Of a stretch of DNA of 64,000 nucleotides, positions 3,573-63,215 are shown in pieces. This DNA comes from Tubulanus polymorphus. Its lineage: Eukaryota; Nemertea; Palaeonemertea; Tubulaniformes; Tubulanidae. The position numbers were made by a program, and so were the translations under genes. The DNA is taken from positions 1,674,001-1,738,000 of the forward strand of contig NC_134028.1 in the NCBI RefSeq assembly GCF_964204645.1, in the 5' to 3' direction. Below the pieces are notes generated by a model. That model was not told the origin of the DNA. It did no database searches and saw only the letters and a program-made list of their open reading frames with translations. The stretch's first letter is position 1, and every line of letters starts with the position of its first letter.

Positions 3573-4353
3573 CATTATACAAAATATTGTTATGGCTTGT
3601 ACGTATGTTTGTAGTTTAGAAAGTGAAATAAAATCGCACGATTTGCAGAAATGATCGTCTTTATTATCGTGTGTTGGGAAAATATGATGATCATGATCAT
3701 GAACTTGAACTTGATATATCGCTGCGTCAAACAGTGACGCATATAACGACGGAAGTTATCCCCGTGTCAACAATCCTTCCGAAAATGACTAAAGTCTAAA
3801 GAAAATCATGAAATGAAAGGAATTTGGTTCGTTGTTTTTAGCTAAGAGAATATATGATTATCCACATTACAGTTACACAGTATATTCCACATTCTTAAAC
3901 CCTTTGAATGTAGCAGTGTAACTACCTCAATATACCTCATTTCTCATTTGATGCTCATGTGCTATAAACCCTATTGAGAAACTAAGGAACTATAGGGTAT
4001 GACACTGGGGATCAATGGGCAGTCACTTTACAGGGTATGTCATACCCTAGAGGTAAACTAAGGGTAATAAAACACAAGGAGAAATAATGAAATAAAAATT
4101 ACATATTTTGGGTATCCACGTGAGGCTTCAGATTATTTGCGATTGAGTTCGTTCCTTGTTCTAAAGTAATACGAACTGAAAAACTCTTTATTTGATAAGC
4201 TTTTCTTTTATCTTATCTAATTAAAGCTTTGACCCGATTGATACATATCGATTGAAAAAGGGTAAACAAGTGAACGCATTATATACTAGTCAACCATTTT
4301 CGATACATTTTCATATCCGACTCCGAAATTTCGCAATACACGCAAATGAATTG

Positions 4354-7300
4354 ATGATGCATTGTTTTTGGTGCATCACCGTGCTAACTCTAGCACTCTG
4401 TTTCGCTAATACGAAGTCCGTATCTGTGAAAGATTATATTTCAAACTATATAACATCTTATTGGCGACCAGAGACTGGCGATGAAACGAAGACTGACCAA
4501 TCAAAATGTGGATACGCGGTAAGAAAAACTTTGTACTATATGAATTTCTATGGAAGATTCATCAAAGTTTGATGCAAGTCTAGAAGCAATATATTTATTG
4601 TAGAAAAAACGATATACTTTTCAAAATTATTTGATGATTCCTAAATGCATCGGTTATACATTTATTAGTCTTAATGGACATAGTCGAGTAGAAATTAGTA
4701 TGAGGGATTGTAAATATGATTAGTTGTTATTGAAAGGCGTGTAATCCAGGGAAAACTGGGATGTTAAATCTTCACCTTGTGCCTCACACGCATGACGATG
4801 TTGGCTGGCTGAAAACAGTGGACCAATATTTCTACGGAGGTAAGAGCCGTTTTATTTTCTGCCGAGCGATGATTTTTATAAGTACTCGCTCACGTTTCGA
4901 TCCATCCTAATTTCAGCGCGTAATGAAATACAAAAAGCGGGCGTGCAGTACATCTTAGACTCAGTGATAGCACAACTTAAAGAGGATTCCACGAAACGAT
5001 TCATCTATGTCGAAGTTGCATTTTTCCATCGTTGGTGGCTTCAACAACACGATTCAATCCGTCACAATATTAGAAACCTTGTTAACTCAGGTATTTACGG
5101 TTCGTCGAGCTGTCACGTGAAGCTCATCAGTTTATCAACGTTCGATGGACACTTATACTACTTTCTAGTGCATCGTTTATGTCGTTTCTTAAATCTTAAA
5201 GAAAATGCGCAATATCTGTATCTGTAATGCTTAATTGACGTGTATGTATTTCATATCATCAGGTCGTTTAGAGTTTATACTCGGTGGTTGGTCTATGAAC
5301 GATGAAGCTTCTACTCACTATTCCGGTATAATTGATCAACATACACTCGGCCTTAAATTCATTAAGGATAATTTTGGAGAGTGTGGCCGTCCTAGAGTTG
5401 CCTGGCAAATCGATCCATTCGGTCATTCCAAAGAGCAAAGTTCACTTTTTGCTCAGGTAAGAATTTAGATTTCGCGCAAACAAGATGAAGCCGTTTGATT
5501 AAAATCGATTGTTTACAATGTATTTTAGATGGGTTATGATGGCCTGTACTTTGCTCGGATAGACTATCAAGACAGAGCTAAACGAAAGAAAGAAAAGCAA
5601 ATGGAAATAATTTGGAAAGCCAGCAATAGCATTCCAGGTAAATAAGAGAATGGATATCTTTCCTCTCAGATTCAAAATCATACTCAACGTTGTAATCTTT
5701 ATTTCAGGCAGTAAATCCACTTTATTCACTGGAGTTTTCTACGAAAACTACGGGCCTCCGCCAACATTTTGTTTCGACTTTTTATGCGCGGATCCGCCCG
5801 TTATGGTATGTCGTTGGTTACCGATAAGCGTCAAGTCAGAGATTTAAAATCTGGTAAAATTCAACTGATGAATGATTGTTAAATTTCACAGGATGATCCG
5901 AGGTTGCACGATCGTAATGTAAAAAAGCGCGTCGATGACTTCATAGCTCACGCCCTGAAAGTGGTGAGTTTGAAATTGTGAAAACTAGTCGAACACGATA
6001 AGTGCAAAATCAAATCTTACCAACCGAAATCTTACTCTGTCCACCATAGGGAAATCAACTTGTATTTTACATTCAGACGATTCTAATATTATATCGAAAA
6101 AAGTTATTCACAATCTCATAGTGAAGGAAGATAAAACGAATGTTCCTATTAATCATAATTATTGCGCTTTTTGATTTAGGCAAAAAGTTACCGTACAAAA
6201 AATGTCATGTTGACGATGGGCAGTGACTTCACATATCAGGATGCGAACATGTGGTATTCTAATATGGATAAACTGATTGAATATATCAATAACAGGGTAC
6301 GAAATATAACAACTACGTTCATACAATCTCAATCTTACTTAAATGTTCACTGATTTCATTTGATTACTATCATTAGCAAGCTAACGGAAGTAAAATAAAT
6401 GCCTTTTACTCGACGCCATCTTGCTACCTGTACGCCAACAATAAAGCTGGTTTGAGGTGGCCGACAAAAAGTGACGATTTCTTCCCTTACGCGAGCGATG
6501 CTCATCAGATGTGGACTGGATATTTTACCAGTAGACCGGCTTTAAAATATTACGAAAGACAAACCAATAGATTTCTGCAGGTAATTTCATTGAAAATATG
6601 GACTAGGAACTTTTCTGAAGATATCACGTGATCATCCATTTTATCTACGAATGCTTGTAGGTTTGTAAACAGCTCGATACGTTCGCTAAACTTCGACAAC
6701 AATTTGGAAGCGATCTCAAAATACGGGCGCTCAGTAAGTTCACTACTTTTCGTTGCCGACAATCAAATCCAGATCTATCGACGGATTTATCTATTCTCTA
6801 CCAATAGTTTTTTTAAATCCCCTTTTGGTATATTTTTCTCAATTGTTTTCAGAGGAAGCGATGGGAGTAATTCAACATCACGACGGTGTCAGGTATGAAA
6901 TTGTCTTACAGTCGTTCAGCGCATCACGTATAATTCCGACATAGAAACAGATCTTTCTTTTCAGTGGAACAGAAAAACAACATGTCGCTTATGATTACGC
7001 GATGAGACTTGCGAATGGAACGACGGAATGCGAGGTGAATTATCTAAAATACTACTTCATTGCGAATTCAAATATCAATCGTCATACGGCAAAGAATTTT
7101 ACATATTTAAATTGGTTGTAGGATGTTGTGAACGAAGCTATGAAGAAATTGCTGAGTGTAAACAAATCAAAACCTCTTCCACGACTGACATTCTGTCACC
7201 AAACTAACATCAGTCTATGCTCAGTTTCAAGTGTAGCGAAACAGGTATTTTCAAATTCGAATTATCAAATCGAAGGAATATGACGCAATCCATAATGCTT

Positions 7301-10113
7301 TCTTTTTTTACTAGTTTACAATGGTTGTATACAACCCGTTATCTCGTCCAGTTACTGCCTGGTTACAAATCCCAGTTAACGGTAACGCCTACAATATTTC
7401 AGACACCAACGGACATCCACTCGCAGCTACTGTACGTAAAACACCTTCGCCAACATCTCATTCCTTACTTACCATAGTGGATTGACCATTCTGATGATTA
7501 TGTTCTAGATTATACCAGTAAGCCAGAGAACACAAGCGATACCCGAGAGAAAATCATCAAATTACACTTCCAGAAACGATATTGTAATGAAGGTTGAATT
7601 ACCAGCGATGGGACTGACCACTTATATGTTCCAACTTTCAAAAAGTTCGCATCGTAACAACACATTTATCTCAAAGGCAAAGTGATTGATTATATTTCAG
7701 TATATATCATCGAAATGTGGTTTTTCTTATGAAAGGTCGAGCGTTGAAACTGTTGCAAACTTATGGAAGGCACGAAGTACGAGGACCGTATACAATTGAA
7801 AATCAGGTAAAATATCACCATTAACTGAAGGTTTCTAACTACTTTAAACTGAATACTATGCGATATCGTTATGTCATCTCCATTGGGATTATCATCTTAT
7901 TGCAGCATTTAAGAGTATATTTCGATGGACAAACTGGTATGATTTCGCGTATTGATAATCTAGATGAACAGCTACATCTGCCTCTTCATCAGTCACTGCG
8001 ATATTACACCGGATTTCCTGGAAATAATTCTCAACCCAAGTTTCAAGCGTCGGGAGCGTATATCTTCCGTCCTATAGAAAATAGACCAAACCCAATAGTC
8101 AACAAAGTTCGCAATACTTTGATGAAGGTAATAAGTAGTCGAATAGAACACTCTAATCCGTGTCAACTGTAGACAAATGAAGAACTCCCTAAATTCGATG
8201 GAATTTATTGAAATAAAACCACAACGTTTCGGAGTATATACAAACGTTACAATCCACTTAACACGTTAATTGAATTTCCTATTTCTGTTAATCTATAGGG
8301 AAAAGTCGTAGAGGAAATGCACCAGGAATTTAGTCCCTGGGCCACGCAAGTTGTAAGACTAAGGGATAATGAGAAATATGTGGAAATTGAATGGACTGTT
8401 GGTCCAATACCCATCAGGTAAAGCGTTACATCAAGACAGGAATATGAACACTGTTCTCTTATTACTATGTGATAGCTTAGTGGATATATAATTACACATT
8501 TTAGCGATGGCAAAGGTCGAGAAGTGGTGAACTATTTTCAGAGCGGTTTAAAAACACATTCAATGTTTTATACGGACGCAAATGGACGCGAAACACAAAC
8601 ACGACGGTACAAAACATATTCGTTAGATTAACATGATTTTCTTAACCAGATTTAGATCATTCTGCGGGTTATTTCGAACTTTTTTATCTCCCACTAGTTG
8701 AGTTTGTCAGTGTAGTTTGTCGTTTCAGTCGGAATTATCGCCCGACCTGGACACTTCAACAAACTGAATCCGTTGCAGGAAACTATTACCCGATTAATGC
8801 ATACGCGTACCTTAAAGTAAATTCACTGCCAAATCTTTTTTCACACGTTGGGAGAAAAACAAATATACTAAAAGTAACAATCAATATCTATCGGTAGGAT
8901 GAACAAGCGAATGTTCAACTGACTGTGTTAACTGACCGGTCACAAGGGGGCGGTAGTATCACTGACGGATCTCTGGAGATCATGGTACGTATGCTCGGTG
9001 GCGATGTACGTTTATAGTGCGCCTTTAGACGTCATCGAACTAACCAAATTTAAGAAAAAAATCATTCCATCGACATATAAACGTTGCTTGGGTATATGTT
9101 TGGATGGTTTGAAGGTGATTTGGTTTAAATGAGTTGGATTTTTTGTTTAATTACAGGTACATAGAAGATTACTTCATGATGATCGGTTCGGTGTTGGTGA
9201 AGCCTTAAATGAAACTGGTTCCGATAAAAATGGACTCATCGTTCGAGGTTATTATCTTCTATACATCGAATTTTTTTGGATAAAAACAAATTCTAATTTT
9301 TTCGTTTTATTCTAAAAGGGCGGCATTATATCTGCCTAGACAGACCGAACAAAGCCGTCCGGCAGATGCGAGAATTGGCTAAGAATATATTCAACAGTCC
9401 CGTAGCAGCATTTACTGAAACAAAGCTTACATTCTACAAATGGAAAACGATGTACAACGTCTCGGTACGTCTGGATTATTCGGGAAATTCCATTTTATCA
9501 TAAGTTGGGAATTTCTCAACGTTTTAGTTATTCTATTTCAGTGGTCTGGTTTGAAAAAACGACTACCACCGAATATTCACCTGTTAACATTAGAACAGTG
9601 GGATGGTGGAGATATTTTGATACGGTTAGAACATTTCTACGAAGTGGGAGATCCATCTTTATCTGCGCCAGCTTCCGTCGACTTACGGGTAAATTATCGG
9701 GTTTTCTTCACCGAAAACGCTATCGCAGAGTCCCTCCAGTTCTTAACAAATATCATTATCTTTAATCAAAATCATCAATCTATCAGAAAGAGTTCGATTG
9801 TTTATTTCAGGGTTTATTTCAACCATTTGAAGTAAAAGCCGTTGATGAACTGATGCTTGCTGCAAATCAAAGAAAAGCCGACAGTAAAAGATTAAAATGG
9901 AATTATACAGGTCAGAAAAATAGATCAATATGTTCTATCAAAAAACATCAATGGTGTAAGCCGTGAATTTAAACTGCAAATGAAATAATCTTTTCAGATA
10001 AAGAAGCGACTGAATCCCAACCACAGATGACACAACAACACGTCAAAACTGACCCCCTTGTGATAACAATGTCTGCAATGGAAATTCGAACCTTTCAGGT
10101 CACATTAGTTTAA
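4354..10113 (+). CDS. MAN2B1: lysosomal alpha-mannosidase, tandem copy A (26 exons, 1027 aa)
   Basis: Glycoside hydrolase family 38 enzyme that removes alpha-linked mannose from N-glycans in the lysosome. Exons: 4354-4518, 4737-4839, 4917-5090, 5263-5456, 5529-5637, 5708-5805, 5892-5963, 6180-6296, 6377-6580, 6661-6733, 6853-6892, 6965-7034, 7122-7244, 7315-7431, 7509-7644, 7736-7806, 7906-8127, 8299-8417, 8505-8606, 8729-8816, 8898-8984, 9157-9247, 9319-9464, 9542-9688, 9811-9910, 9998-10113. They sum to 3084 bases with all phases joining. The start is the first of two adjacent ATGs, giving a hydrophobic signal peptide ([18 protein letters not shown]). Zinc ligands lie in HTHDDVGW (His74, Asp76) and QHHDGVSGT (about His446). 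The nucleophile is Asp198 in WQIDPFGHS. The length fits the family (human about 1011). One donor is weak (GTTCGC after 7644) but is required by the frame. AATAAA at 10191 is the likely poly(A) signal. Confidence 0.95.
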
Positions 10114-10672
10114 CCATACAGGCATCTCTACCAGTTCTATGGACAAGAAATAAAGATGGTGACATTGATGAAAAGAATTGATATGATTATAATAAAATGA
10201 TATATTAGCAAACATTATGAGTATAGAATTTTACATTGTTTACTGAGGATTTTCTCAGCGAATCTGATCATTTCCGACATGATTCGACTAAATCTTCAAT
10301 TTATTCGACAAGTACGAGCTCAAAGTGTACTAAGACACCTAGTCCAAAGACTGCTTTAGTTAGTTTGATAATCTCGAATATCATTTCACTCATTTCGAGA
10401 TTTCCATCTCACGAACTTTCCGTCCAATATTGAGACGATGTCGCTTTCAGTGGCTTTTACACGAGATGCTGGGCTTCGAGGATGTCGCAGAACACTGTAC
10501 TTATCTCTAGTTTTGAGAGCGTATATATGTCATATGAATTGGGAAGTGATTATTATCTAATCTCTTAAAAACGTCAACGCGACCTTTATATAGACCTATA
10601 TAGAAAGTAGGGAGATCAATCGTGCCTAAATGTATATGATTTTTTGATCGTCAACACTCGGGTAATGCACAA
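10114..10672. promoter_or_regulatory. MAN2B1: intergenic spacer between the two mannosidase genes; 3' end of copy A and probable promoter of copy B
   Basis: The spacer is only about 560 bases. It carries AATAAA at 10191-10196, matching the end of copy A. TATATA-like motifs at 10585-10600 lie about 75-90 bases before the copy B start codon and could be its TATA element. I see no coding exon. So short a spacer means copy B either has its own compact promoter or shares upstream control with copy A. Confidence 0.45.
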
Positions 10673-13600
10673 ATGGTCAATATGTATTGGTTCATCTTCT
10701 ACGGAGTGCTGACCTTTTATCTGAATTGTTTCGTTTTCGTTCGGACTGAAGTAAAGGAAAATGTGGAAAATATATCGAACTATATGCCAAATAACTACCG
10801 GCCGGAAACCGAGGACAAGGCGCGCGATGAACCAAAATGTGGATACGAGGTAAATCGAACCATTCAAACTATATCATAAACGGGGTTAAAAACTGCCAAA
10901 TCTAGATTTTAATTCTCTTGGACAAAATGACAGGTATACCCCCCCCCCCTGATTATTTAAAGGCGTGTGACGCAGGGAAAAGCGGAATGTTGAATATCCA
11001 TCTCATACCTCATTCACACGACGATGTAGGGTATACGAAAACAGTCGACCAATATTTTTATGGAGGTACGGATAAATACTTTTAGTCGGTACAATTAAAA
11101 ACCTTCAGAAAAATTAAGAAATTTAAACATAAGTTAACTTAAGTTCAGGTAATGACAGACCATGTCGATTCGAAAATCATTATAAGATGAATGTGATTCT
11201 GTAAACACCGGTGCCCTGGATCTCATATTTGGAAGATCTTCAATTATTCTTTTTCAGCCCACAACGAAATCAGGACTGCAGGTGTGCAATATATCCTCGA
11301 TTCAGTAGTAGCGCAGTTGATGAAAGATTCACGAAAACGATTCATCTACGTCGAAATGGCATTTTTCTATCGTTGGTGGCGTCAACAAGACGATACAATC
11401 CGTCATGATATTACAAATCTCGTAAACTCAGGTCTGGTTCAATCGGCTTATTACGGGACATTCTAGAATATTCTAGATACTCGACGTTTTCTGGAAATTC
11501 TACTTGATATACTGGGAAGAAATGAACTTTCGGAGACTACTTTTTATAAGAAGTTCTTAATTGAATCTCTGAGATTGGAAATATTTTTCTGAACAGGTCG
11601 TTTAGAGTTTATACTCGGTGGTTGGTCTATGAATGATGAAGCTTCTACTCACTATTCCGGTATAATTGATCAACATACACTCGGCCTTAAATTCATTAAG
11701 GATAATTTTGGAGAGTGTGGCCGTCCTAGAGTTGCCTGGCAAATCGATCCATTCGGTCAATCGAAAGAGCAAAGTTCACTTTTTGCAATGGTAATACATT
11801 TAAGACGTTAAAGCAACGGGTATTCCCGTAATTTCAATAACGAGAATACCATGTATTTTAGATGGGTTATGATGGCCTGTACTTTGCCCGGATAGACTAT
11901 CAAGACAAAGCTAAACGAAAGAAGGACAAACAGATGGAGATGGTTTGGAAAACTAGCAACAGTATTCCAGGTATGGAATCTTAAGAAAAACTTTAAGTTT
12001 GAGCATGTTTTTAATTGCGTCATTGGTAAATTCCAGGTGAGAAATCCACTTTATTCAGTGGAGTACTATATGAACATTACGGCGCTCCGTCGACATTCTG
12101 TTTTGATTTGCTTTGCATTGATCCACCTGTAATGGTAAGAAAGTATTGACGAGCAAAATGAAATAAATCTATCTATCTATAAACACCGGCGATAACGTTG
12201 AAACATTCTATGCAGGATGATCCGAGATTACACGATTATAATGTAAACGAGAGAGTTGAGGATTTTATAGCTCACGCTCAGACAATGGTTAGTGTAGGAA
12301 AAGTTGCCATACTCGGTTCAACGGACTCCCAATTTTCATAAACAATCGATCAAATGGGACTTTTGCCCTAAACAAAGCTCTGATTTGAGATGAAGAATTT
12401 TCTTTTCGTTTTCGTCAAGGCAAAAAGTTATCGTACCAATCACATCATGCAAACAATGGGTGGTGACTTCGCGTATCAAGATGCGAACATGTGGTTTACA
12501 AATACGGATAAACTGATCAGATACATCAATAACAGGGTAAAGATGACATGTAAATTCATTTCGTTTATTACTGCATCCATCATCTTGAATTTCATTCAAT
12601 AACATGTGAAACTTTGATATAAGGTTATAAGCTAAGATAACGGCTGATAATTTCTATACATGTATAGCAAGCCAACGGAAGTAAAGTGAATATATTTTAC
12701 TCGACGCCATCTTGTTACCTGTATGCCACCAATAAAGCTGGTCTGACGTGGCCGACAAAAAGTGACGATTTCTTCCCCTACGCGAGCGATGCTCATCAGA
12801 TGTGGTCTGGATATTTTACCAGTAGACCGGCTTTAAAATATTACGAAAGGCAAGCCAATAGATTTCTGCAGGTAATGCCACCTTCAACAACTTTTTGATA
12901 ACACCCCCTAAGATTGAACAGTCCCACTAAAACCGACTATTCTAATTTGTAATCCAAAGGTTTGTAAACAGCTTGATACGTTCGCACAGCTTCAACGGCA
13001 GTTTGGCAGCGATCTTAAAATACGGGTTCTCAGTAAGTCAACAGTTATATCATATTTTCAAATTCACGGCAAGTTCTTTTTCTTATCACCCATTGTTAGT
13101 TCAGTACACGTCTTTATACCAAAATTTTTTTTTTCAGAGGAAGCGATGGGAGTAGTTCAGCACCACGATGGTGTCAGGTATGAATCCTATGGCCGTTGAT
13201 TTTTTATATAATCATATAAAGGCTAAAGAAGCTTTTAAAGAGCTCGATAGTGTTTTTATTTCAGTGGTACTGAAAGACAGCATGTCGCTTATGATTACGC
13301 GATGAGACTCGCCAAAGGGATATTAGAATGCGAGGTGAAATTGCTTATACACATACGATTCATATCTTAGCCAAACGACGTCAGTCATTTTTATGTCATT
13401 GTTACTTCCAGGATGTTGTGAATGAATCTATGAGGAAATTGCTGAGTGTAAACAAATCAAAACCTCTTCCACGACTGACATTCTGTCACCAAACTAACAT
13501 CAGTCTATGCTCAGTTTCAAGTGTAGCGAAACAGGTATTTTCAAATTCGAATCATCAAATCGAAGGAATCATGACGCAATTCACAATGCTTTCTTTTTCC

Positions 13601-16600
13601 TACCAGTTTACAATGGTTGTATACAACCCGTTATCTCGTCCAGTTACTGCCTGGTTACAAATCCCAGTTAACGGTAATGCGTACAATATTTCAGACACCG
13701 ACGGACATCCACTCGCAGCTACTGTACGTAAAACACCTTCGCCAACATCTCATTCCTTACTTACCATGGCAAATCGACCATTCTGATGATTATTTTCTAG
13801 ATTATACCAGTAAGCCAGAGAACACAAGCGATACCCGAGAGAAAATCATCAAATTACACTTCCAGAAATGATATTGTAATGAAGGTTGAATTACCAGCGA
13901 TGGGACTGAACACTTATCTGTTCCAACTTTCAAAAAGTACGTAACATTTCATTCGTACTGCGGCTGAATATGTTGATACATGGTTTCAATAATTTTCTTT
14001 CCTGTAGATGTGGCGCTAAAAATGATGCAAAGTTATGGAATGTACGATGTATCGGGTCCTTACACATTTGAAAACCAGGTATACATGTCATTGCATATAA
14101 TACATTAAAATGTAGTCTATGGAATAAATCTGGTAACGTTTAGCACACGACATATCGTTTTATTGCAGCATTTAAGATTATATTTCGATGGACAAACTGG
14201 TATGATTTCGCGTATTGATAATCTAGATGAACAGCTACATCTGCCTCTTCATCAGTCGCTGCGATATTACACCGGATTTCCTGGAAATAATTCTCAACCC
14301 AAGTTTCAAGCGTCGGGAGCGTATGTTTTTCGCCCCACTGAAAATGAATCAAACCTCATAACCAATAGAGTTCGCAATACTTTGATAAAGGTAAAGTAAT
14401 ATTGTTGATTGCTTTCTTTTTTTAACAAGCGATGTCGAAAAATAGCAATTCATTTTGGCAGAGAATCTGATATTTCTTTGACTATAGGGGAAGATGGTAC
14501 TAGAAATGCACCAGGAATTTAGTCCCTGGGCCACGCAAGTTGTAAGACTAAGAGATAATGAGAAATATGTTGAAATTGAATGGACTGTTGGTCCAATACC
14601 CATCAGGTAAAGCGTTACATCAAGACAGGAATACGAACTCTATTCACTTATTACTATGTGATAGCTTAGTGGATATATAATTACACATTTTAGCGATGGC
14701 AAAGGTCGAGAAGTGGTGAACTATTTTCAGAGCGGTTTAAAAACACATTCAATGTTTTATACGGACGCAAATGGACGCGAAACACAAACACGACGGTACA
14801 AAACATGTTCGTTAGATTAACATGATTTCTTTTCGATTAGAAACCAAATTTAGATCATTTTGCGGGTAATTTCGAACTTTTTTATCTCCCACTAGTTGAG
14901 TTTGTCAGTGTAGTTTGTCGTTTCAGTCGGAATTATCGCCCGACCTGGACACTTCAACAAACTGAACCAGTTGCAGGGAACTATTACCCGATTAATGCAT
15001 ACGCGTACCTTAAAGTAAGGCTGTTTCAGTAAAATTGTTCCAATTTGAAAGGAAAATAAAAATGTAGCTAATATTATTGTATCAATTCATAATATGTTCA
15101 TATCCAGGATGAACAAGCGAATGTTCAACTGACTGTGTTAACTGACCGGTCACAAGGGGGCGGTAGTATCACTGACGGATCTCTGGAGATCATGGTACGT
15201 ATGCTTGGTGGCGATGTACGTTTATAGTGCGCCTTTAGACGTCATCGAACTAACCAAATTTAAGAAAAAAATCATTCCATCGACATGTACACGTTGATTT
15301 GGTATGTTTGGATGTTTTGAAGGTGGTTTGGTTTAAATGAGTTGTGAATTCTTTGTTTAATTACAGGTACATAGACGATTACTTCACGATGATCGGTTCG
15401 GTGTTGGTGAAGCCTTAAATGAAACTGGTTCCGATAAAAATGGACTCATCGTTCGAGGTTATTATCTTCTATACATCGAATTTTCTTTGATAAAAACAAA
15501 TTCTAATTTTTTCGTTTTATTCTAAAAGGCCGGCATTATATCTGCCTAGACAGACCGAACAGAGCGGTCGGGCAGATGCGAGAATTGGCTAAGAATATAT
15601 TTAACAGTCCCGTAGCAGCATTTACTGAAACAAAGCTTACATTCAACAATTGGAAAACGATGTACAACGTCTCGGTACGTCTGGATTATTTGGGAAATTC
15701 CATTTTATCATAAGTTGGGAATTTCTCAACGTTTTAGTTATTCTATTTCAGTGGTCTGGTTTGAAAAAACAACTACCACCGAATATTCACCTGTTAACAT
15801 TAGAACAGTGGGATGGTGGAGATATTTTGATACGTTTAGAACATTTCTACGAAGTGGGAGATCCATCTTTATCTGCACCAGCTTCCGTCGACTTACGGGT
15901 AACTTATCGGGCTTTCTTTACCGAAAACGCTATCGCAGAGTCCCTCCAGTTCTTAACAAATATCATTATCTTTAATCAAAATCATCAATCTATCAGAAAG
16001 AGTTCGATTGTTTATTTCAGGGTTTATTTCAACCATTTGAAGTAAAAGCCGTTGATGAACTGATGCTGGCTGCAAATCAAAGAAAAGCCGACAGTAAAAG
16101 ATTAAAATGGAATTATACAGGTTAGAAACTAATCAGTCATATTCCGCTTAGATTTTTATGTTACAAGATGGAGCTGGGAAGAGTCTGAATGAATCGGTAC
16201 CGACGTTAATGTTTGAATTTCATTTCGATTATTGTTTCTGTGCCATTCAGTTCTCAAAACGGTTTAATATATCATGCCTACATAACAACAGCAGTCAGGG
16301 GCTGTAATTGTTTGAAAATGAATGTTGACAGAGAAAAAAGATGCCCGGTCGTGTTTTCTTTCTGAAGCTATTCGCTATCAATTACGATGAGCGGAATCGG
16401 CGCTGTGCAAACTAGCAAATTTTAGCTTTATCATGCCCCATTAGAACGGCATGCCTCGCACCTGGTGCTGCGTCTCGCAATTGAGATATTCATCACGAAC
16501 GGGAACCAGTCAGCCAAATTTACCCACACACAAACACACACCGTCGTTAAATTAACCATTAATAGCTTAGAGTCGTCTATTCATCGACAGTCATCTTCGA

Positions 16601-17266: not shown

Positions 17267-18599
17267 GTTGCAGTGAAGACATGGATTCAGAATGATCACA
17301 CGCTCTTACGTTTTCGAGTTCTTGCTGTTTGTGTCAATTGGTTCATGTTTGTTTCAATTCATTTCAACATATTTCGCGTGATTTACATTCATTACACTCG
17401 TGATTATTTGAATAAACGATTGGATGGAATATTGCTGAACTGACGCATTTTTAGGTCTTCAGTTATTTATTTCGGGTATATGATTAATTAAAGCTCGGTT
17501 TTTGACGCGTCGACCTTTCCATAGATACATTCATCGCCTGTTAACTGTTTTAACTCGTTATTTGTTCAGATAGCTTGCTATAAAAAGATTCTGAGATCCA
17601 TTCGCATTTCAACGCCTCGCTTTTGCCGCCTCAGAAATAAGTACACCACCCATACTTCTTCGTATAAGCGATGTATCATGTGACAAGGAGTATAGAATTT
17701 GAGATCGGAATCTTTAGTCTATAGAAGAGATTTATACTTTCCTACAGATCGGCTTTCGTTTCGTAGTTCGCACAAACAGTATAATGTTAAACAGAGGATA
17801 TAGAATTTCCAATTCAGATTTGCAAAAATATTGCTAAAGCTCTTTGTCGTATTCAATGCATTTAGGTAGAAAACACAACTTTTTGCAAAAGTGAACCTTT
17901 TTGCAAAAAATGATTGAGCACAATAGCCTCCATTCTGTGCATCTCTTATATTATTGAGATTATTGAGAGCCGAGTCTAAAGATACATATTTTCATCACTC
18001 TGAAGATCGGAGAGACATCTCAATGCGTTTGCACTCATGGCCATATTTCCACCTTGTTAATAGTTATGCGATAAAGAAACATTGTATGTAAACTTCTAAT
18101 TTACAAAATTACAATTTTCCGACGAAATTGACATTAATAACTCGACTGGTTTGTTTCAATATTTGTTCAAAAGCAACTAATAATCATCATCGAGGACGGT
18201 ATGACGGACGCTCCAATAAGCTTTGCTCGTAGAGTCGCGCGCCAACCGCGGTTATTAATGCAATGAAGACTGATTGGTGAATTTGGTGTTTCTTGATTCT
18301 TTGTCACGACACGTGCCTCACGGAAGCTCTCTATTGGAGAGGATGAACGCAAACATTTATTGCTGCTATTAACCGCCTTTAATTTACTGAGATTACATAT
18401 AAAGCGCATGTGTAAATTGGTATCCGTCGGAAACTCTCTAGGAATTGAGTCTTCCTGCCCGAGGTGGTGTAAGTGGCAAGTAGGAATCCTGGCTGAAAAT
18501 TATCAACATTGGATTATACCGTTATCTCGTAATAAAGGATTAGCGAAATTTTACTAAAATTAAATTCAAAACTTTGCGAAGTTTACGAAAGTAAACGAG
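17267..18599. promoter_or_regulatory. 3' end of mannosidase copy B and upstream region of the Atonal-like gene
   Basis: AATAAA at 17411-17416 probably ends copy B. Closer to the bHLH gene are a perfect CACGTG E-box at 18310-18315 and a TATAAA at 18398-18403, about 200 bases before the start codon. These are motif matches only. No coding exon is supported. Confidence 0.4.
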
Positions 18600-19079
18600 A
18601 TGGATTTAGAAAATCTCGAAGATATCGATTCGGATGGATTCGAAGAAGGGGGATCCTCTGCGGCAAACGTGGACTGTCAACAGTCGGCAATGAAACGATC
18701 GACTTGCAAACAGATGTATCGCGCTACCAAGAAAAGGAAGCCGACAAAGTCGACAGACCACATCAATGACGACGACCAGTCGACCGATCTAGAACGACAA
18801 GACGAAACGATGAACAGTAATCTTTGTCGGTTGGATAGATTTTCCGTCGACGCCGAGTACGGATTCAACAATCGGGATGTTCTCAAAAAACGTCGCGTTG
18901 CCGCTAACGCCCGGGAAAGGAGGCGCATGCATTCTCTGAACGTGGCGTTTAATCAACTGCGAGACGTTGTACCGGGTATAAACGGCGATAGACAGTTATC
19001 GAAATACGAAACTCTACAGATGGCGCAAAGTTATATCAGCGCTCTGAAGAGTATTCTCGATCTCAACGAAAAATGTTAG
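18600..19079 (+). CDS. Atonal-family bHLH transcription factor (single exon, 159 aa)
   Basis: Atonal-group proteins bind E-boxes as heterodimers with class I bHLH partners and start neuronal or sensory-cell fate. The bHLH covers residues 98-153 at the very C-terminus. The basic region reads [17 protein letters not shown], with the NxRER contact motif; the loop is short (GINGDRQ); helix 2 reads [17 protein letters not shown], the strongest Atonal signature. The N-terminal half is acidic and polar with a Lys/Arg cluster near residues 41-50. Lack of introns is usual for this group. The ATG at 18600 is the first in frame and is preceded by AAACGAG. It could be the orthologue of ATOH1, ATOH7, amos/cato or another Atonal member; the sequence does not settle which. 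AATAAA at about 19650 may be its poly(A) signal. Confidence 0.92.
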
Positions 19080-19660: not shown

Positions 19661-19883
19661 TAAGGCTAAAAAAAAATTGATACCTTGTTTCTCCGCTCTG
19701 CTGAGCTTAAAAGTTGACCAAGCCGCCTATCTACCCTATACATAACTTTTTTTTAAATCGTGATCAATTTTACCATAACAGACCCGGCCGCTATAGAAAT
19801 GAACTGTTTACAAATTTTATCATATTTTACAAAAATGACCCGGCCGCTGCGGAGAAACAAGGTATCATTTTTGTTTAGCATAA
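19661..19883. mobile_element. MITE-like element, family 1, complete copy
   Basis: It starts TAAGGCTAAA, continues into GATACCTTGTTTCTCCGC, and ends with the inverted form GCGGAGAAACAAGGTATC and TTTAGCATAA. The terminal inverted repeats are about 35 bases. Length is about 223 bases with no transposase. Compared with the copies near 0.9 and 45.6 kb it lies in the opposite orientation. Flanking TA at the ends would fit Tc1/mariner-type insertion, which is inference. Confidence 0.85.
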
Positions 19884-20137
19884 TCATAAACAAATTGGCG
19901 AAACTTATGATGCATCAAGAAGTGTCGGATCGTTGTGATATTTCAAAATGGACAATTCGTATCGTTCCGGAAGCTATCACGGAGTATAGTATGAGCTCGC
20001 GGAATGATAAAGCCGTTTTAAAGTATCCGGCTGATATAAGCAACCACTTAAGTTAATTGGTTTTCATACGTAATGCAGTAAATCATATAATCTATCGATA
20101 GTTTTGCGGTGCTTAAAAAGGAGTAACAGTTTAGACT

Positions 20138-21955: not shown

Positions 21956-22459
21956 CTACCAGCGCGGCGAAGCACTGGTTAAAAAACAAGCTATTTAAAA
22001 ATACACACCGCAGGAGCGAATACTATATGAAAACAAGCGTGCTGCGATGTTATTTAAGTAGTTGAGTAAACCAAGTATTATATAGTTACAGAGACGTTCA
22101 GAGACTCGAGCATCTGAAATTTGGGAAGAATTGTCCGGTTAACCGGTGGAAATTTGACAAAAACATTTGACAGATAGCGCTAGCGGTCGAACGGAATCAA
22201 CGAAACTAGGCCGGGAATTTCTGTGCAAGGGTACAAGTAATATTGTGTGTCGTGAACTCGCGCTATAGTGTGTATAGGTAGTGGAACTATGCGGATCTAC
22301 TACCACTATACATTTTACATTACATTTCCACTATACAAGCACTAAAGAACGGCTCTAGATAGGTCGCAGAGATCTTCTCAACGGTTAATTCGCTGTAATT
22401 AGGAAAAGGATCTGGCGACCACAGTTTTAGAATAAGGAGGAACACTAGCGACCGTCATC

Positions 22460-31719
<9,260 letters not shown>

Positions 31720-33782: not shown

Positions 33783-36424
33783 TTAATTGCGCCATCGGCG
33801 AAGGCGACGCCACCTAGCGAGCTCTGCTCGTTCAATATTTGCTGCGTAACAACATTTGTGAAAATCATTTGGTCGATGTTTGACGCATCTGCCGAATTGA
33901 TGACGAATTTCTTTACCGTAGTCAATAGATTCTAATCTGGGCATTCTGCGGTTCTGTGCACGATTGTTGTTTCGGGAGTCGATCGATGCGGCATAAAACT
34001 GCGCCATACAGTGGAAGCCTTTGTCGCCTGCCAATCTGCCAAGCATGCAACAAGACCAGTGTCTGCGGTCCACGTCTAAAATCATGACAAAAATAGAAGA
34101 AATATTTTAAGTAAAGCGTGGAATGACTTTTTCGATCGTTTATCGTGTACAGAATTTTTATGTTATGTTAATTATTATATAAAAAACACAAAATCCGGTT
34201 TATTATTTTGATAATAATAAAAAACTTGGAATCGCATAAAAGAAGATCATTTTATGAGTTCAGAGAATTTTAAAGCGCGTAGTACTTTTTCGACAGGACA
34301 AACAAGGTCTCCGCAGGGGCTGACGACTGAACTTTTTCATATTCCGGTCAAAAGCTCTTCGAGGGCCTGATGATTCATGTTATACAACTTTTAATAACCC
34401 TCGTACGATTGTTATAGTTTACAACATAGATTATATTTAGAATAGTGTTGGTATTTCTCAATTCTTTAAACGAGATTTACTAAAACATTCAATTATGAGC
34501 GGTGAAAAGAGAGCAATAAGTGACACTGTTTTGTAAGTAAGTCGTGAGAATGGCGTGATGAGGGCATGGCGTGATATCCTTCGTTGATTCACTGTGACTT
34601 GTTCAACTTCTGCCCATGATTTATTATACGTTGAATATAATATCTCTATGTGAAACAGAAGTCTTTGTAACGGTTAGCGAAACGATTCGTATTTGTATAC
34701 AAAAGATAACATCAAAACTAATTAATAACTTCAGAAAAATAAGACAGATTTAGCACCGACGATATTTCGTATTATAATGATCACTATGTTTTAAAAGCCT
34801 AGTTTACCCAATAAAATTTAGATCGAAGAAGATTCTGACACACAATTTCCATTCATTGCGATGTTGAGTAAATAATGAACGTTTCGGTCACTTTAAAGGT
34901 CGTTGGCCTACAAGGCATTGTTTTCCTGCATAAAAGTTTATAAATAAGGGTAATAAATGCCGTATATAGGACTGACATAGAATACATATATTCATATGAT
35001 TTCCAAACGAAGACTTGGACATGCGACAATGTTTCTCGCATGAGGAATGAAATGTAGCGACCAGAGTTGATAAAATCACTATTATCAACGATGTAATTTG
35101 ATATTGTGAAATCAAATCGAATCTAGTAATGTAATGTATTTGCAAATATGTTTATTCTTACATATCAAATAGTTTAATCTTATCACCTTTATTCACTATA
35201 CGCGTATATGGAAAACATCAAACATTTTTATGTCTGATGCCGGAGAACTATCGGGGGAGTATCAGAGCGGATGTTTATTACCTCTGAAATATCCAATAAT
35301 ATCAGATGAAGTAACTGGAGCGGGTACGAGTTGTGAAACGTTCCTCGGTTTCTGATTGTTCGTAGCCCGTGAAGAATGAGGTCGTGGTCTCGTCGATTGC
35401 TCCCCGAATAACTCGTCCCCAAGTTCCATCAAGTAATCTGCAATTAGAAAATCATTTAAAACCAATTATATTTTTACTATGAAAATATGTGTAAAAGATA
35501 ATGTTGAATTGGGCACAGTGTATATTTTCTGTATAAGCACAGATGTTTCGGCCTGGATATTCGAAGGTTATTCGCAATGGGCACACCTCTCAGTTTCATC
35601 TATGCCTGGCTGCAGAATAAATGAATAATTCATCTCGGACAATAAATTTACGATATATCCCGGTACATAATGTTCATGTATAGAATGTATACGTGTTAAA
35701 AGTGCTGTTCTATGGCTAATAATCGAGCTATTTTGTAAAAAGGAGTCCACGACGACTTGCTGAGTGGGTTTTAGGTATATTGGCAACTAATACCCGCATT
35801 AGTACAGGCGTACGGAACCATTTAAAAAATTTTGATACCCCTTGTAGTGTAGGCTATATAAATGTATTTGAATAATGAGGAGATCACGCAATAGGATATT
35901 CTTTTTAAGAAGTCGAAAGAGCTCCTGTACATGCGTCAGGCTACGAACTAGAATTCTTACACAACCAAGTATCATGTAACATCTATAATGAATGGTAGTA
36001 AATCTCGCCTAACACTGACGTGGTCAACTTAAAGTCCGACAAAAACGAAATGATTTTCTGACCTACGAACGTATTTTCCGATCCTTATCTCGGATCAGCT
36101 TTGCCTATTTGGTTCAATTAGGCGGGGTTTACTGCAGTCCAAAAGGGTAGAGAGGTAACATCATGTAGGATAGTATAGATCAGACATTTTTTTATGAATT
36201 GTGTCTTTACCTGATTTTAACGGTATTTTTTTAAATTTCCTTATTTCAATCACCAGTTATCGTTTAGGTAATATTAATGCAATTATGAAAAACTTTTTCA
36301 AAAAGAACTTACCGGTGAAATGCTCGTACCGTATTTCCCTCGAATCCGGCCGAATCGCGTGCGACGCCCAAAAACTACCAAAAACCATCGCCAGCAAAAC
36401 AATTGTTCTTAGACAATGCATCAT
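33783..36424 (-). CDS. secreted six-cysteine protein, family not recognised (3 exons, 186 aa)
   Basis: Minus-strand exons are 36424-36313, 35437-35282 and 34075-33783. Donors and acceptors are canonical, phases join (112+156+293 = 561 bases) and the last exon ends with TAA. Residues 1-23 form a clear signal peptide (MMHCLRTIVLLAMVFGSFWA then SHA). Residues 24-95 are polar and low in cysteine. The C-terminal part has six cysteines at 98, 99, 112, 153, 164 and 165, a CC...C...C...CC pattern (HWSCCMLGRLAGDKGFHC; GRCVKHRPNDFHKCCYA), then a tail rich in Arg and Trp. Dibasic RR sites occur at 94-95, 132-133 and in the tail (179-183), so proteolytic maturation is possible. I infer an extracellular peptide or growth-factor-like protein with three disulfides. 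I cannot place it in a named family and do not assign a function. The nearest gene downstream is a Dimmed homologue. Confidence 0.75.
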
Positions 36425-41234: not shown

Positions 41235-42867
41235 AATAAACTAATTTAACAACAGGTTTACACGGCTCGTCCGCTATTCTCCTAAACAATGTTTCTGTTA
41301 GAATGCATGCAGTAAAAATGTTCTTATTCTATCATTAACGAGGTTTTAAGAAATCAAAATCAGAAGGCCATCCCTAACATATATCCCCATTGAAGTATAT
41401 GAAGTCACGTCCCTGATTCACTAAAGATTCAGTGTACATCTGCACATATCTACTACGTGTTGATATATTTCTCGTATCGCGCTGTCGACGCGTTATCGTC
41501 ATTTTCAAAGCCTGTAATAAATAACATTTTGATAGTGATGATTTTATCTATTGATTTTCCGCAACGATTTCTATATAAAATTCAGTGAGATGAATAGATT
41601 TCTCCGGTATAAACAACATGTTGAAATGAGTTTCTATATTCTATATATGTGGATAGGGGAACGAAACTTCGACGTCAATCTATACCAATTATCTTTTCGA
41701 AGGATAACTCTTGTTCGCATGTATGAATAATGATAAGATAATGAAAAACAATTTTTTTCAATTTTCCGAAAAACGAATGCAAAACACACGATAGAAAACA
41801 GTGAAGATGCTGATATGAAATTATGAACGTTCTTCGACTTCCTCGTTTTATTCTGTGAAAAAATTGTGAATATTCAACTAAAAATCTCTATCGCATATTC
41901 CAATAGACAAACGACAGAATGATGAAGTACGAATATCGTATACGTCGTATAGTAGAGTGTCAACGTGGGGGCGTCAGGCATAAGAGTATATAAACAGAAA
42001 CTGTTATTCGAAATGGCAATATTATTTACCATCAATTTCTCGATGAAAATTGGCCTTAATTCGACTGGGAATAACGTGGCACAATGTGGGAGAATGTTGT
42101 GTTGTATTAAGTGACACAAATTAGTTCATTGCGGGGACCATTCTTAAAAACACGTGCATACATCACTTATCATCAGTCTTTGTCCAGGGTTTCAGCGGGG
42201 GTTTCCCGTATGGGCATTCCGAACAACGTCGGGTCGACACGGAGTCGGGCTGGTATTACTATCACTATTCGTGATTTCTAGGCAACTCTTACCCCACGTT
42301 GAAATATGACATATCTCGGCATCTATTGTGTTCAGCTAGAAATAAAAACAAAAGACACTTTCGTGTCACAGACATATGCTGTAGAATTGTATACACTTAA
42401 AACCACCTGTAACTTACTTCAGCGCATTAAGGCAAATACGAAATTCGATATAATCTATGCGTAAAGATTCAATCCGCAAGCAATGACAAACATTTGTTTC
42501 TGCCTCTGAATCGTTTGGGAATCTCAACTATATAAAGAAACATTATAACATTAGCTTTATCTAATTGAAATGAGTATTTGTATAAGGTTTCAATGTCTGC
42601 CCTACCGCCTCCAACCATATTATAGTGTGTATATATAGAATTTTCAATCTATATTTATACAAAAGAATTTTGTAAGGGTTCTGCTCAACGTCTCTTTCGA
42701 TCATTTTTTGCCGGTAGTATTAGACGTGTGCAGGGTTTTTTGTCGACACATGGTTCAGCATTAACCCTTTAACATGCGATCCCGAACCAACTAAGTAAAC
42801 AAATTTGTCGTTCGAACAGACACAATGAAACTGAAACGATGACTTTTATTTTTATTTTTTTTAGATC

Positions 42868-43434
42868 ATGCGACGTTCCGCTTTCAATATTGAATCACCG
42901 TTCGACTTTGATGTTTCGACCGGTGTTGATGCATCGGCATCGATGTGGGACGTGGTTCCGTCATCGAACTGCTCCGACACCAGTTCGAATAGGCGAAAGA
43001 GGGATGCTTCCGAGAGCGACGACGATTCGGTCGAATTTCGTAAACCGATGAAGCAAACGAAACGTTCTAAACGTCGCAAAACTGTGAGCGCTCGCGAACG
43101 CAACATGCGACGCATCGAAAGCAATGAACGAGAACGCATGCGCATGCATTCGCTGAACGATGCCTTCCAAGGTTTACGCGAAGTTATACCGCATATGAGT
43201 ATGGGTCGGAAACTATCCAAAATAGAGACACTAACCTTAGCGAAGAATTACATCAAAGCATTGACGAATGTTATATGCGACATGAGGGGTGAGGACCGTC
43301 GCTTCAATTTCGACGAGGAGATAGGCGACGAGGATGACGCGGACGCCGATGGACAATTATCAGATCTACCAGATACAGAAGCAAGCACGGAAATCGTGCA
43401 TACATATACCGACAATTTGATAACGACCGCCTAA
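42868..43434 (+). CDS. BHLHA15: Dimmed/Mist1-type bHLH transcription factor (188 aa)
   Basis: Class A bHLH factor that in flies (dimmed) and vertebrates (Mist1) drives the regulated-secretory cell programme. The bHLH covers residues 80-137. The basic region reads [20 protein letters not shown], helix 1 continues [10 protein letters not shown], and helix 2 reads [17 protein letters not shown], the diagnostic Mist1/Dimmed signature. Two Lys/Arg clusters just before it (residues 62-78) are likely nuclear signals. The N-terminus and C-terminus are acidic, with an Asp/Glu-rich run near 149-165. An acceptor (TTTTTTAG) ends at 42864, three bases before the ATG, so the coding part is one exon behind a non-coding leader. 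The first ATG after the acceptor is used as start. Confidence 0.95.
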
Positions 43435-45647
43435 TGGACTGTGCATAATTCGGAAACACGTATAGCAAGCGATAAGCCTTTTGAAATGCAAATATGACTT
43501 TCTGCAATTTTCAGAACATATGTGCATCGTATTTTTGGTTTTTACCGGATTTAGTGCATCGACCTCGCCGGACAAACACCGACATGTTATTTAATGAACG
43601 CACCAGCGAACAGGGCTGGCTACGATTGATAGCTGCGAAACGAAAAGAAAATATTCGATGAACTTTAAAGCGACAAATATGATATTTATGAAGTCAAAGA
43701 AGAACTGTGATTATTATGATAAGTGTCAGAGGCCTAGTGAAGAAAAAACAGATTTATTTTTGTCCATCATATGCTATTTATAAACGGGTTGGTAGGTGGA
43801 AGAGCCACATAATTATGTAATTCAATAAGTATTTCATCCCAACATCAACATCAAAGCTTTGGGTTTATAGGTTGTAAATATGCGTAGATACATTTAATCG
43901 ATTGATTAAAGATATTGGGTTTGGGGAGATTTGAACGCAGTTAACATCAGCTCATTCAATTATTTCATGTCTTCTATCTCATATATATATATATATATAT
44001 TAATATACATATACAAAAACAATTATTCTATATATCATATGCATGGTCAGGGATATCGGGATTTTTATTCAAAAAGATATTTTCTCACTTCCTTTAGAGA
44101 CTATTTTAGATAACATGAAATTGAAACCTCCTCGACAAAAGATACTTCCCAAATATTGATATAAGAGAGATAGTAGCACTCGACAAACCATTTGCATTTA
44201 CAACCCATAAAATGGGGTGCTCGATTTGGAGCATAAAGGTTTATTGGTGATTGAAAATAGCATACAATATGATGACTTTTATTATCAGAAGTTTTGGATT
44301 AAGATTACACAACACGTCCGCCATTATTGGAAACAAGAAGGAGCGATTTAGTTGTTATTAATTGATCTTTATAAAACTGTACAGAACCGTACGACTCTAA
44401 ATGACAGTAGTCGCATCTCAAAATTCATACAAACGATATTCTGAGACTAGAACATGACATTTAGTCAGATTTCTCCACGAAGGTCTTGGATGCGCGTGGT
44501 GACATTCAATTTTGCTCTTTCGAATCGATTATAACGTTGACATTATCAAAATCATTACGAAAAGTTAATCTATAATCACCTAATTTTGAGATAGCAACTG
44601 TATGTTTTTGATTGAGCTCGAAATAACGAAGAAGCGATCTTAACGAATAGAGTTGAAATCGTTTACCGGTAGGGATGATTTCAGATAGATCCGATAGCTC
44701 TGAAGGCCATAAACCTCAGAATTGAACATAAGTAATTTCTGCTGCCTATAGCAACTTAAAATGCCATATATATTAAAACAAAACAGTATATTGATAAAAT
44801 GTTATTTTTTATAAGAGATATTGAATGAGTAAAAAATGGTTTTTGTATGATATTGCTGGCATCATACATCGAGTCCAGACAATCAGGCAAAGTGTTCCAT
44901 GAATTACGTATAAGGTATGCTAAAAGCCCTGCTAAAATATTTTTTTAAAGTATATTTTACTGACTGCATAGTTCTCGGAACTGGAGATTTTCCCTTAAGT
45001 TTTCAGAATACATTCGAATACATTTTCGAGGCTTAAGGTCTCGTCAAATTTCCGTCTCTATAAAAAAAAGCCATCTCGTTTTCCAGTTACTCCTCGCAAT
45101 CTGTGCATGATTGTTTTGAAAATTCTCATATATAGATATACTCTATAGACACTTTGATAGTAGATGATATACTCTCTGAAATGGCTAAACCTTTACATTC
45201 TTCATCTTGTGAAACGTACGTATAAAATATACATATATATCCTAAGACATTCTATTTTAGTGTAACGTGTTTCGTCGGGTGGTGGGTGGACTCCGTGTTA
45301 CTGTCAAATCGTATAAGGTTTCAGCATTCTTAAGAATACAAAATATATTTTATTGGACTTAGATGTATTGATTGTATGTTTGTATACGTTATTATTGTTC
45401 TTCCACAATCAGCGCCATTTTCATTTACGAAATTCTCATTTTTACCGACCATGATTACGTAACGTGTATTTTGTAAGAGACATTTTAACCTGATATTTTC
45501 AACAATTGGTTATTTTTATCATTTTTTTTCAGTGACCAAATATACCTGAAACAGAAATATACATTATAGGAATGAATTTTATACGTGTTTTGATTTCTAT
45601 GATCATAAAATAATTAACACAGGCGCGGGTGGACGTGTAAAACCATG

Positions 45648-45876
45648 TTAGGCTAAACAAAAATGATACCTTGTTTCTCCGCAGCGGCCGGGTCATTTTT
45701 GTAAAATATGATAAAATTTATAAACAGTTCATTTCTATAGCGGCCGGGTCTGTTATGGTGAAATTGATCACGATTTTAAAAAAAGTAATGTATAGGGTAG
45801 ATAGGCGGCCGGCCGGGTCAACATTTAAGCTCAGCAGAGCGGAGAAATAAGGTATCAATTTTTTTTTAGCCTTATA
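45648..45876. mobile_element. MITE-like element, family 1, complete copy
   Basis: It opens TTAGGCTAAACAAAAATGAT and ACCTTGTTTCTCCGC and closes with GCGGAGAAATAAGGTATCAA followed by TTTAGCCTTAT, a terminal inverted repeat of about 35 bases. It is about 229 bases long and in the same orientation as the copy at 911. Internal GCGGCCGGGTC blocks make it GC-rich against the local background. Confidence 0.88.
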
Positions 45877-46417
45877 ATCGGATTCGGTTTGAGACCCGAT
45901 AATTGACATGTAAGCGCAATACAGGTTGTAACTCCATCCGTTCCTGTCTATTTTCCGCGCACACACATACCACGTACAGTTTGATTATATCGGTCAGTAC
46001 CAATTAATTCAAAATAATTAGCAGTAGTTTATCCAACCAGATATTTGCTGCACGAATCTTAGGTCAAATAGATGCAACTTTGATTATCATGAAAATTTAA
46101 TTTTCGCCGCTACCGAGTATTGCTGTATGTAAAGCCAATCCTTGTTTATAATCCTGATCGAAGAGAGAATGAATGACCTGTTACTTATTGAATATTCTAG
46201 CGAGTATAAACCGGTGGGTGGAATATGCCCGGTGTTTCGTGTAGCTGTAACTAAACGTCATCAATGCAAACAGATATTATCATCATATATTGTTAAAATA
46301 TAAAAAATGATTTACTGGTATAAATCTCACCCGTTTACCGTCTATGTGTATGTACACTATTTATTAAGCATGGATCATTATTCAACTTATTGATTGTTCC
46401 TGGTGTTAATTCTGAAT

Positions 46418-48195: not shown

Positions 48196-62466
<14,271 letters not shown>

Positions 62467-63215
62467 TTTATTGATCCAGATTTAATTTCACTGTATTGGA
62501 GGGAAAAGTGAAAATCTTGACTGACAATACAAAACTATTAAAAACATGATTAGGCCCAATTGTTTTATTCCCTGATTTAACATCACAACAGAAACTGAAT
62601 TATGATTTCAGGGGCAAAACAAGAATGAGGGAATGAGACAATTTTTTAAGTGAAATAAAAATTGTCACAACTTTTGAGTCTTTGACTGAAATCGATAAAA
62701 CATGATTTCGACTATATAAAACTACTGTTGTGGCCACAGCCAGTAATTATGGGCTTGACAAACACAATAGATGAGATGTTAAACTTAGGTCCACCACATT
62801 TTGCTATTTTATGCAACATAGGCCCAATAGCCAAAGATGTAACTCGGTGCAACAGTCCCCAAAGTAGCGTCTTAACACCCACGTGTAGCAGTAGGCCCTT
62901 ATTATTCTACTGTCGTCATTGCCTTTGCTAAATTTTACCTGCTTTCACCGTTTCTCTGCACTCGAAGGAATGTATTGCTCCAATATTGTTGGTCTGGCAG
63001 GGTTCAGTTCGCGTTGACAGTTCAGTTATTGCCGATGATGCGACGATGACAAGATTTCGACTTCCCTATATCAATCAGCATCGACATAAGGCGATCCAAT
63101 CACAGCCAATCACAATGTCGATTTATCTAAACGTCATCAGACTGGGCGGGCTTACCCGACGCTGCTGGTCGACGCTTCAAAATTCTAGGGGCCTGAGGCA
63201 AAGTATATAAAGAAA
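62467..63215 (-). promoter_or_regulatory. FASN: candidate FASN leader, first intron and promoter
   Basis: On the minus strand, a CAG acceptor lies just above 62490, 24 bases before the start codon, so the leader is probably spliced. A fitting donor (GTCGG then GTAAGC) lies at 63155, which would end a short non-coding exon of about 63156-63180. A TTTATATA motif at 63203-63211 is then about 25-30 bases upstream, right for a TATA box. Within the putative first intron are two CCAAT boxes (about 63095-63112), a TGACG and a GGGCGGG GC-box (63144-63150). These are motif readings only, with no transcript evidence. Confidence 0.45.

Follow-up and report, generated by a model that had tools for sequence, protein, structure and literature searches.

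A small secreted six-cysteine protein and its relative in the same genome: a possible family of orphan ligands

The gene described here codes for a small protein with a predicted leader and a six-cysteine domain and, together with one relative in the same genome, it makes up a real-looking, unnamed two-gene family of small secreted proteins in this animal, as far as can be judged from sequence. The reading that we favour, tentatively and at a little less than an even chance, is that the gene is genuine, that it belongs to this unnamed two-member family, and that its product is a secreted three-disulfide protein most likely working as the ligand of a receptor. By unnamed, we mean without a name in Pfam, NCBIfam and the PDB; an uncharacterised orthologue is likely to be present in public proteomes, and the family counts as a new orphan of an ordinary type. 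Orphan secreted disulfide-rich proteins are a frequent source of previously undescribed hormones and immune ligands of invertebrates, and a two-member family with fixed cysteine spacing provides a concrete target in this respect.

The window, i.e. the whole stretch of 64,000 nucleotides that was analysed, corresponds to G000:C4:1674001-1738000 in a genome of 267.8 Mb and 77 contigs. Three minus-strand exons (Table 1) splice into 561 nucleotides encoding 186 residues and a stop, through two GT-AG introns that are both of phase 1; the original prediction had described three exons joining cleanly into a protein of this length, and its coordinates, splice sites and product were all found in the sequence as described. 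Exon 2, with its acceptor TTGCAG and its weaker donor AGAG/GTAATA, is the least certain exon of the model, because it constitutes a symmetric phase 1-1 cassette, which can be skipped without any change of frame, and has no counterpart in the model of the relative. The leader MMHCLRTIVLLAMVFGSFWASHA is strongly hydrophobic (mean Kyte-Doolittle value of 2.96 over the best nine residues), in agreement with the strong signal peptide initially proposed, which remains a predicted one. Of the seven cysteines of the precursor, one belongs to the leader and the other six, residues 98, 99, 112, 153, 164 and 165, to the domain, so that the announced CC...C...C...CC pattern takes in exon 3 the precise form CC-x12-C-x40-C-x10-CC. 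An open CC-x12-C-x(37-41)-C-x10-CC occurs once in the six frames of the window, while about 0.04 would be expected, from base composition, per genome-sized random sequence. In addition, the precursor contains four RR pairs, at residues 93, 132, 179 and 182, and one N-glycosylation motif, at residue 70. The tail, which carries RWRRLRRWR and ends in RWRN, is basic and includes the last two of these RR pairs, and the Arg/Trp-rich tail with dibasic sites of the original prediction thereby holds. As to codon usage, scored with a small training set of which one stretch contained a stop, values as high as those of exons 1 and 2 were reached by 11% of 2571 and 12% of 875 open control stretches, respectively, and values as high as that of exon 3 by 16 of 23.

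Table 1. Positions of the six-cysteine gene, its parts, its bHLH neighbour and two loci elsewhere in the genome
Feature	Position	Strand	Description
Exon 1, coding	36313..36424	-	Residues 1-37 plus the first base of codon 38; contains the hydrophobic leader; donor CACCG/GTAAGT
Exon 2, coding	35282..35437	-	Residues 38-90; linker or propeptide; one N-glycosylation motif
Exon 3, coding, with stop	33783..34075	-	Residues 90-186; six-cysteine domain and basic tail; acceptor TTTTAG
Predicted signal peptide	36356..36424	-	Residues 1-23; cleavage placed by eye after ..WASHA; hydropathy
Six-cysteine core CC-x12-C-x40-C-x10-CC	33849..34052	-	Residues 98-165
RR pair directly upstream of the domain	34062..34067	-	Residues 93-94; putative processing site
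RR pair within the long loop	33945..33950	-	Residues 132-133; putative processing site
Arg/Trp-rich C-terminal tail	33786..33848	-	Residues 166-186
bHLH exon adjoining the six-cysteine gene	42868..43434	+	Pfam HLH 2.7e-18
Relative	G000:C4:8715820-8716214		Same chromosome as the window; CC-x12-C-x38-C-x10-CC, basic tail, tentative leader
Complement C3-like gene	G000:C7, about 19363927-19380400		ANATO 4.1e-5, over Pfam cut-off; CC-x13-C, FxxCC

The evidence for a family arises from a search in which the domain was compared with all six reading frames of the complete genome, and which returned the domain itself and one other place, G000:C4:8715909-8716160, at E 0.022, the reverse search from this relative recovering the window gene at E 0.011. 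In the relative, RCCKVGEKTARKRLKC is separated by a loop of 38 residues from CSENFEKSFEKCC, after which comes an Arg-rich tail, and both members have CCxxG, FxKCC and such an Arg-rich tail in common. More precisely, their alignment reaches a score of 92 compared to a maximum of 73 among 5000 cysteine-fixed shuffles of the window protein, and since all 5000 shuffles are beaten, the two proteins are related beyond their cysteines. The last exon of the relative starts at 8715820 in phase 1, the same phase as exon 3 of the window gene, and the distance from exon start to first cysteine amounts to 34 residues in the relative compared to 8 in the window gene. The long loop of the relative contains KKR and that of the window gene RR, and its C-terminal end is RERY. 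A candidate first exon of 61 bases, at 8712676-8712736, with the donor ACTG/GTGAGT and the leader MNYGSFELCTLFTCGLFAVTGA, was retrieved when the 26 kb upstream were scanned under relaxed settings, as one of seven candidates and the sole one with a donor score of 8; as stricter settings left no leader exon candidate in these 26 kb, this exon is considered tentative. With it, the relative would be a 152-residue precursor in which the six shared cysteines are accompanied by two in the leader and two in the tail. Finally, a genome search with a blend of both members revealed no third member better than E 3.1. Over all searches, the candidates for such a member were weak (E 1.2 and 3.1), and the match at E 1.2 has a CC without the six-cysteine spacing.

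That the protein could be matched to no named hormone or growth-factor family had been stated from the outset, and this was borne out by searches of Pfam, NCBIfam and the PDB, none of which gave a convincing match. The window protein has no match in Pfam at E 10, the relative has two unrelated weak ones below their cut-offs (E 0.036 and 0.12), no useful model was found in NCBIfam for the natural sequences, and the single window sequence has no match among PDB sequences. The profile of the natural pair has 13 PDB matches, led by HP0721 at E 0.008 and followed by Rh5 chains of the malaria parasite; these were set aside as helical, charged stretches of unrelated proteins. No relatives appeared in one scan of prokaryote contigs and two scans of viral contigs, as expected for an animal gene, and because these collections hold prokaryotes and viruses, this result says nothing about other animals.

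Structure prediction from the single sequence of exon 3 gave four helices at a poor mean pLDDT of 56.5. A Foldseek search with this model, which is too weak for a fold search, found no real match, and in a second look, in which 8 chains were compared, C3a and C5a were not among the matches listed, which proves nothing with a model of that quality. On the basis of the sequence features, the leader would direct the product into the secretory pathway, where the C-terminal domain would fold into a compact helical bundle held by three disulfides, as the conserved cysteines and the low-confidence model suggest. By analogy with anaphylatoxin-like modules, the pairing would most likely be C1-C4, C2-C5 and C3-C6. 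Trimming of the precursor may occur at the RR pair that precedes the domain and perhaps also within the long loop, after which the mature protein would act extracellularly, in the most likely case as a receptor ligand. A signalling role is in this sense possible.

Several other explanations have to be weighed against this one. That there is no functional gene at all, the exons being chance open reading frames joined by chance splice sites or the remains of a pseudogene, would accord with the weak donor of exon 2 and with codon scores that do not set the exons clearly apart from control stretches, but is hardly credible given a relative with the same cysteine plan and with similarity beyond the cysteines, and a reading frame that stays intact across three exons. 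The main rival to the ligand reading, since both members are basic, is a secreted cationic defence protein, i.e. an antimicrobial or immune effector whose helical core would be held by disulfides and whose tail would bind microbial membranes. Basic residues outnumber acidic ones by 32 to 19 in the window precursor and by 37 to 16 in the relative, and the RWRRLRRWR of the former is echoed by the Arg-rich tail of the latter. However, the Trp residues of the window gene's tail are absent from the relative, neither natural protein matches a Pfam defence family, and the helical moment of both tails is ordinary, being equalled or exceeded by 2219 and 926 of 5000 shuffles, respectively; the first of these counts gives no support to an amphipathic antimicrobial helix in the window gene's tail. 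This defence role is regarded as rather unlikely. A tissue-specific structural or accessory secreted protein of gland, cuticle or reproductive tract, and not a signal, is regarded as unlikely. Such roles are common among the small secreted cysteine-rich proteins of animals, and the genome yielded only two members, which are quite diverged; nevertheless, single-copy genes with an ordered disulfide core would be untypical of bulk structural proteins.

A divergent true member of the anaphylatoxin-like (ANATO) family, namely a stand-alone ligand derived from a C3a/C5a-type module, enlarged by a loop of 38-40 residues and by one more helical turn ahead of the last CC, is the remaining alternative. 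It was assessed with shortened copies, from which the long loop and the four residues before the last CC had been removed in both members. In the PDB, the best match of the shortened pair profile is C5a (1c5a, which we take to be pig C5a), with an E-value of 0.0055; the query had been deliberately shaped to the ANATO spacing by hand-chosen deletions, and E-values of this size also arise without kinship, as with the natural pair profile and HP0721. C5 or C5a chains account for seven of the nine PDB matches of the shortened profile, six of these seven lying at E 5 to 7, and by comparison the certain ANATO domain of the genome itself matches C5a at E 0.044. Against the C5a stretch, none of 200 column shuffles scored as high as the shortened pair profile, whether with both cuts or with the loop cut only. 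Besides, the natural C-terminal half of the window gene, RCVKHRPNDFHKCCYAANIERAE, aligns to the C5a stretch KCVKAFKDCCYIANQVRAE with one four-residue gap (RCVK....DFHKCCYAANIERAE against that stretch), and only one of 5000 cysteine-fixed shuffles did as well, compared to 408 of 5000 with the relative. In Pfam, the shortened relative covers the full ANATO profile with 12.5 bits and E 0.3, the cut-off being 21.4, and none of 40 cysteine-fixed shuffles of it gave an ANATO match, HMMER filters being on in both cases.

Most other results point away from ANATO membership. The shortened window gene has no match to Pfam ANATO, the shortened pair matches two unrelated Pfam families better (E 0.12 and 0.17) than ANATO, and shuffles of the shortened relative match other Pfam families at E down to 0.015. 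With a profile of four ANATO sequences, the natural proteins do no better than cysteine-fixed shuffles, of which 368 of 1000 equal the window gene and 141 of 1000 equal the relative; with the shortened copies, these counts become 7 and 120 of 1000, respectively. The relative with only the loop cut has four unrelated matches in the PDB, the best at E 0.021, and no complement protein among them. Compared with the genome's own C3-like ANATO, the pair profile receives no support, 48 of 200 and 27 of 200 shuffles being as good. In summary, the shared CC-x12-C, CCxxG and FxxCC, the C5a matches and the presence of a C3-like protein in the same genome argue for a divergent ANATO member, whereas the lack of any Pfam ANATO match of the natural sequences, the loops outside the ANATO range, the need for hand-chosen deletions to obtain the best matches and the missing C-terminal Arg argue against it, and we judge it quite unlikely. 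Still more doubtful would be the scenario of two independent secreted genes that carry an enlarged C3a/C5a-type module and yield free ligands without complement cleavage, beside the C3-like protein. Were the ANATO-like plan true, it would mean that ligands of the C3a/C5a type can have genes of their own, and could lead to receptors in animals whose complement signalling is little understood. The ANATO resemblance may thus serve as a lead on a possible fold, not on family membership, and the unnamed family of probable receptor ligands is retained as the preferred reading.

The six-cysteine gene adjoins a bHLH exon (Table 1) that we take to be of the Dimmed/BHLHA15 type, which had inspired the idea that the two genes are co-regulated. 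Drosophila DIMM is reported to target no neuropeptide genes and to prefer the E-boxes CATATG and CAGCTG, mostly in first introns (PMC4344488). The first intron of the six-cysteine gene contains neither CATATG nor CAGCTG, and near the gene, with 1 kb upstream examined, a single CATATG was detected in the second intron and another at 0.8 kb upstream. The window as a whole has fewer CATATG sites than expected, 13 compared to a mean of 20.7 in shuffles; CAGCTG occurs 10 times compared to 6.1. The idea of co-regulation is weakened by the reported absence of DIMM from neuropeptide genes, by the lack of first-intron sites and by the absence of CATATG enrichment, and adjacency says little, since it was seen in one genome with no relatives compared; co-regulation is thus weak, being neither shown nor made likely. 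As a separate observation, five of the 13 CATATG E-boxes of the window fall within 42373-44041 (1.7 kb), around the Dimmed-type exon, a clustering noticed post hoc that 61 of 20000 random placements equal somewhere. Since Dimmed/Mist1-type factors bind CATATG according to the same study (PMC4344488), and the motif clusters around the gene's own exon, self-regulation of the Dimmed-type gene through this cluster is conceivable.

Elsewhere in the window, a cGMP-dependent protein kinase (PKG) gene at 22436-31437 on the plus strand is convergent with the six-cysteine gene and shows two candidate first coding exons, each with a PKG coiled-coil, which lies just below the Pfam cut-off in 22436-22732 and over it in 26389-26712. 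A second bHLH exon (18564-19076; HLH 5.3e-19), presumably of Atonal type, is located about 24 kb from the Dimmed-type exon. The region 4225-16042 contains near-identical tandem gene copies, presumably alpha-mannosidase-like (e.g. the open frames 9419-9832 and 15629-16042), and the two of its frames that were searched have no match in Pfam. The same holds for one searched frame of a large minus-strand gene at 48494-62481, which to us reads like a fatty-acid synthase. The peptide IVINFTITDPAAIEMNCL is read at both 19757-20053 (+) and 45721-45984 (-), and this stretch would be a dispersed repeat, perhaps a mobile element. At the scale of the genome, TTAGG telomere-type arrays are present at two places only, G000:C3:4313853 and G000:C9:818422, with 36 overlapping matches, and the first of them is internal, the contig continuing past 20.8 Mb. 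In addition, only three places of the genome have matches to the odorant-receptor family of insects with E-values of 0.001 or less, and the odorant-binding-protein model has no genome match, which is not proof of absence. A hymenopteran source of the genome, such as a wasp or bee, is supported neither by these counts nor by the presence of the C3-like gene.

Among known systems, the order CC-C-C-CC is that of what we take to be conotoxin framework III (M superfamily), and the likeness is limited to this order, the conotoxins having much shorter loops and another fold class than the six-cysteine protein. Insulin-like peptides, ITP/CHH, eclosion hormone and neuroparsin, i.e. arthropod hormones that are also made as secreted disulfide precursors, some with dibasic sites, differ in the order of their cysteines, and neither natural sequence has a Pfam match to them. 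No stand-alone anaphylatoxin-like arthropod protein was noticed in searches of a library of open-access papers. The C3-like protein of the same genome resembles the pair by its ANATO domain, with CC-x13-C and FxxCC, but it is a large multidomain thioester protein, with a bait-region match (0.00047) just below the cut-off, the thioester motif PTGCGEQ and a cysteine-bearing C-terminal part, and with respect to its ANATO the pair profile does not stand out from shuffles. In two studies, C3-like genes are placed in Strigamia, Tetranychus and Parasteatoda, and described as lost from representative Hexapoda and Crustacea (PMC4833078, PMC8960428). Should the animal be a hexapod, its C3-like gene would run counter to the loss reported for that group.

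Finally, the comparison with the ANATO family (PF01821; C3a, C5a, fibulin-1/2) reveals both differences and likenesses. The C3-C4 loop measures 40 residues in the window gene and 38 in the relative compared to 9-13 in ANATO, and 10 residues separate C4 from the last CC in both members compared to 6. The natural sequences have no Pfam ANATO match at E 10, and the domain occurs here in a separate gene and not as part of C3/C5 or a fibulin. The two members end in RN and RY, without the C-terminal Arg that is reported as needed for the activity of the anaphylatoxins C3a and C5a (PMC8960428). On the side of the likenesses, both members have the cysteine order CC-C-C-CC, a first spacing CC-x12-C that lies within the 11-13 of the ANATO stretches compared, and the two motifs CCxxG, with Gly three after the first CC, and FxxCC, with Phe three before the last. 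In one structural source, module 1 of fibulin-2 has its cysteines at C435, C436, C449, C462, C469 and C470 with disulfides 1-4, 2-5 and 3-6, the residue numbers of modules 1 and 3 give CC-x12-C, and a structure of four helices is reported for both C3a and C5a (PMC11220139). The six-cysteine domain, helical in the model at pLDDT 56.5, would in this regard resemble C3a and C5a, which are short soluble ligands.
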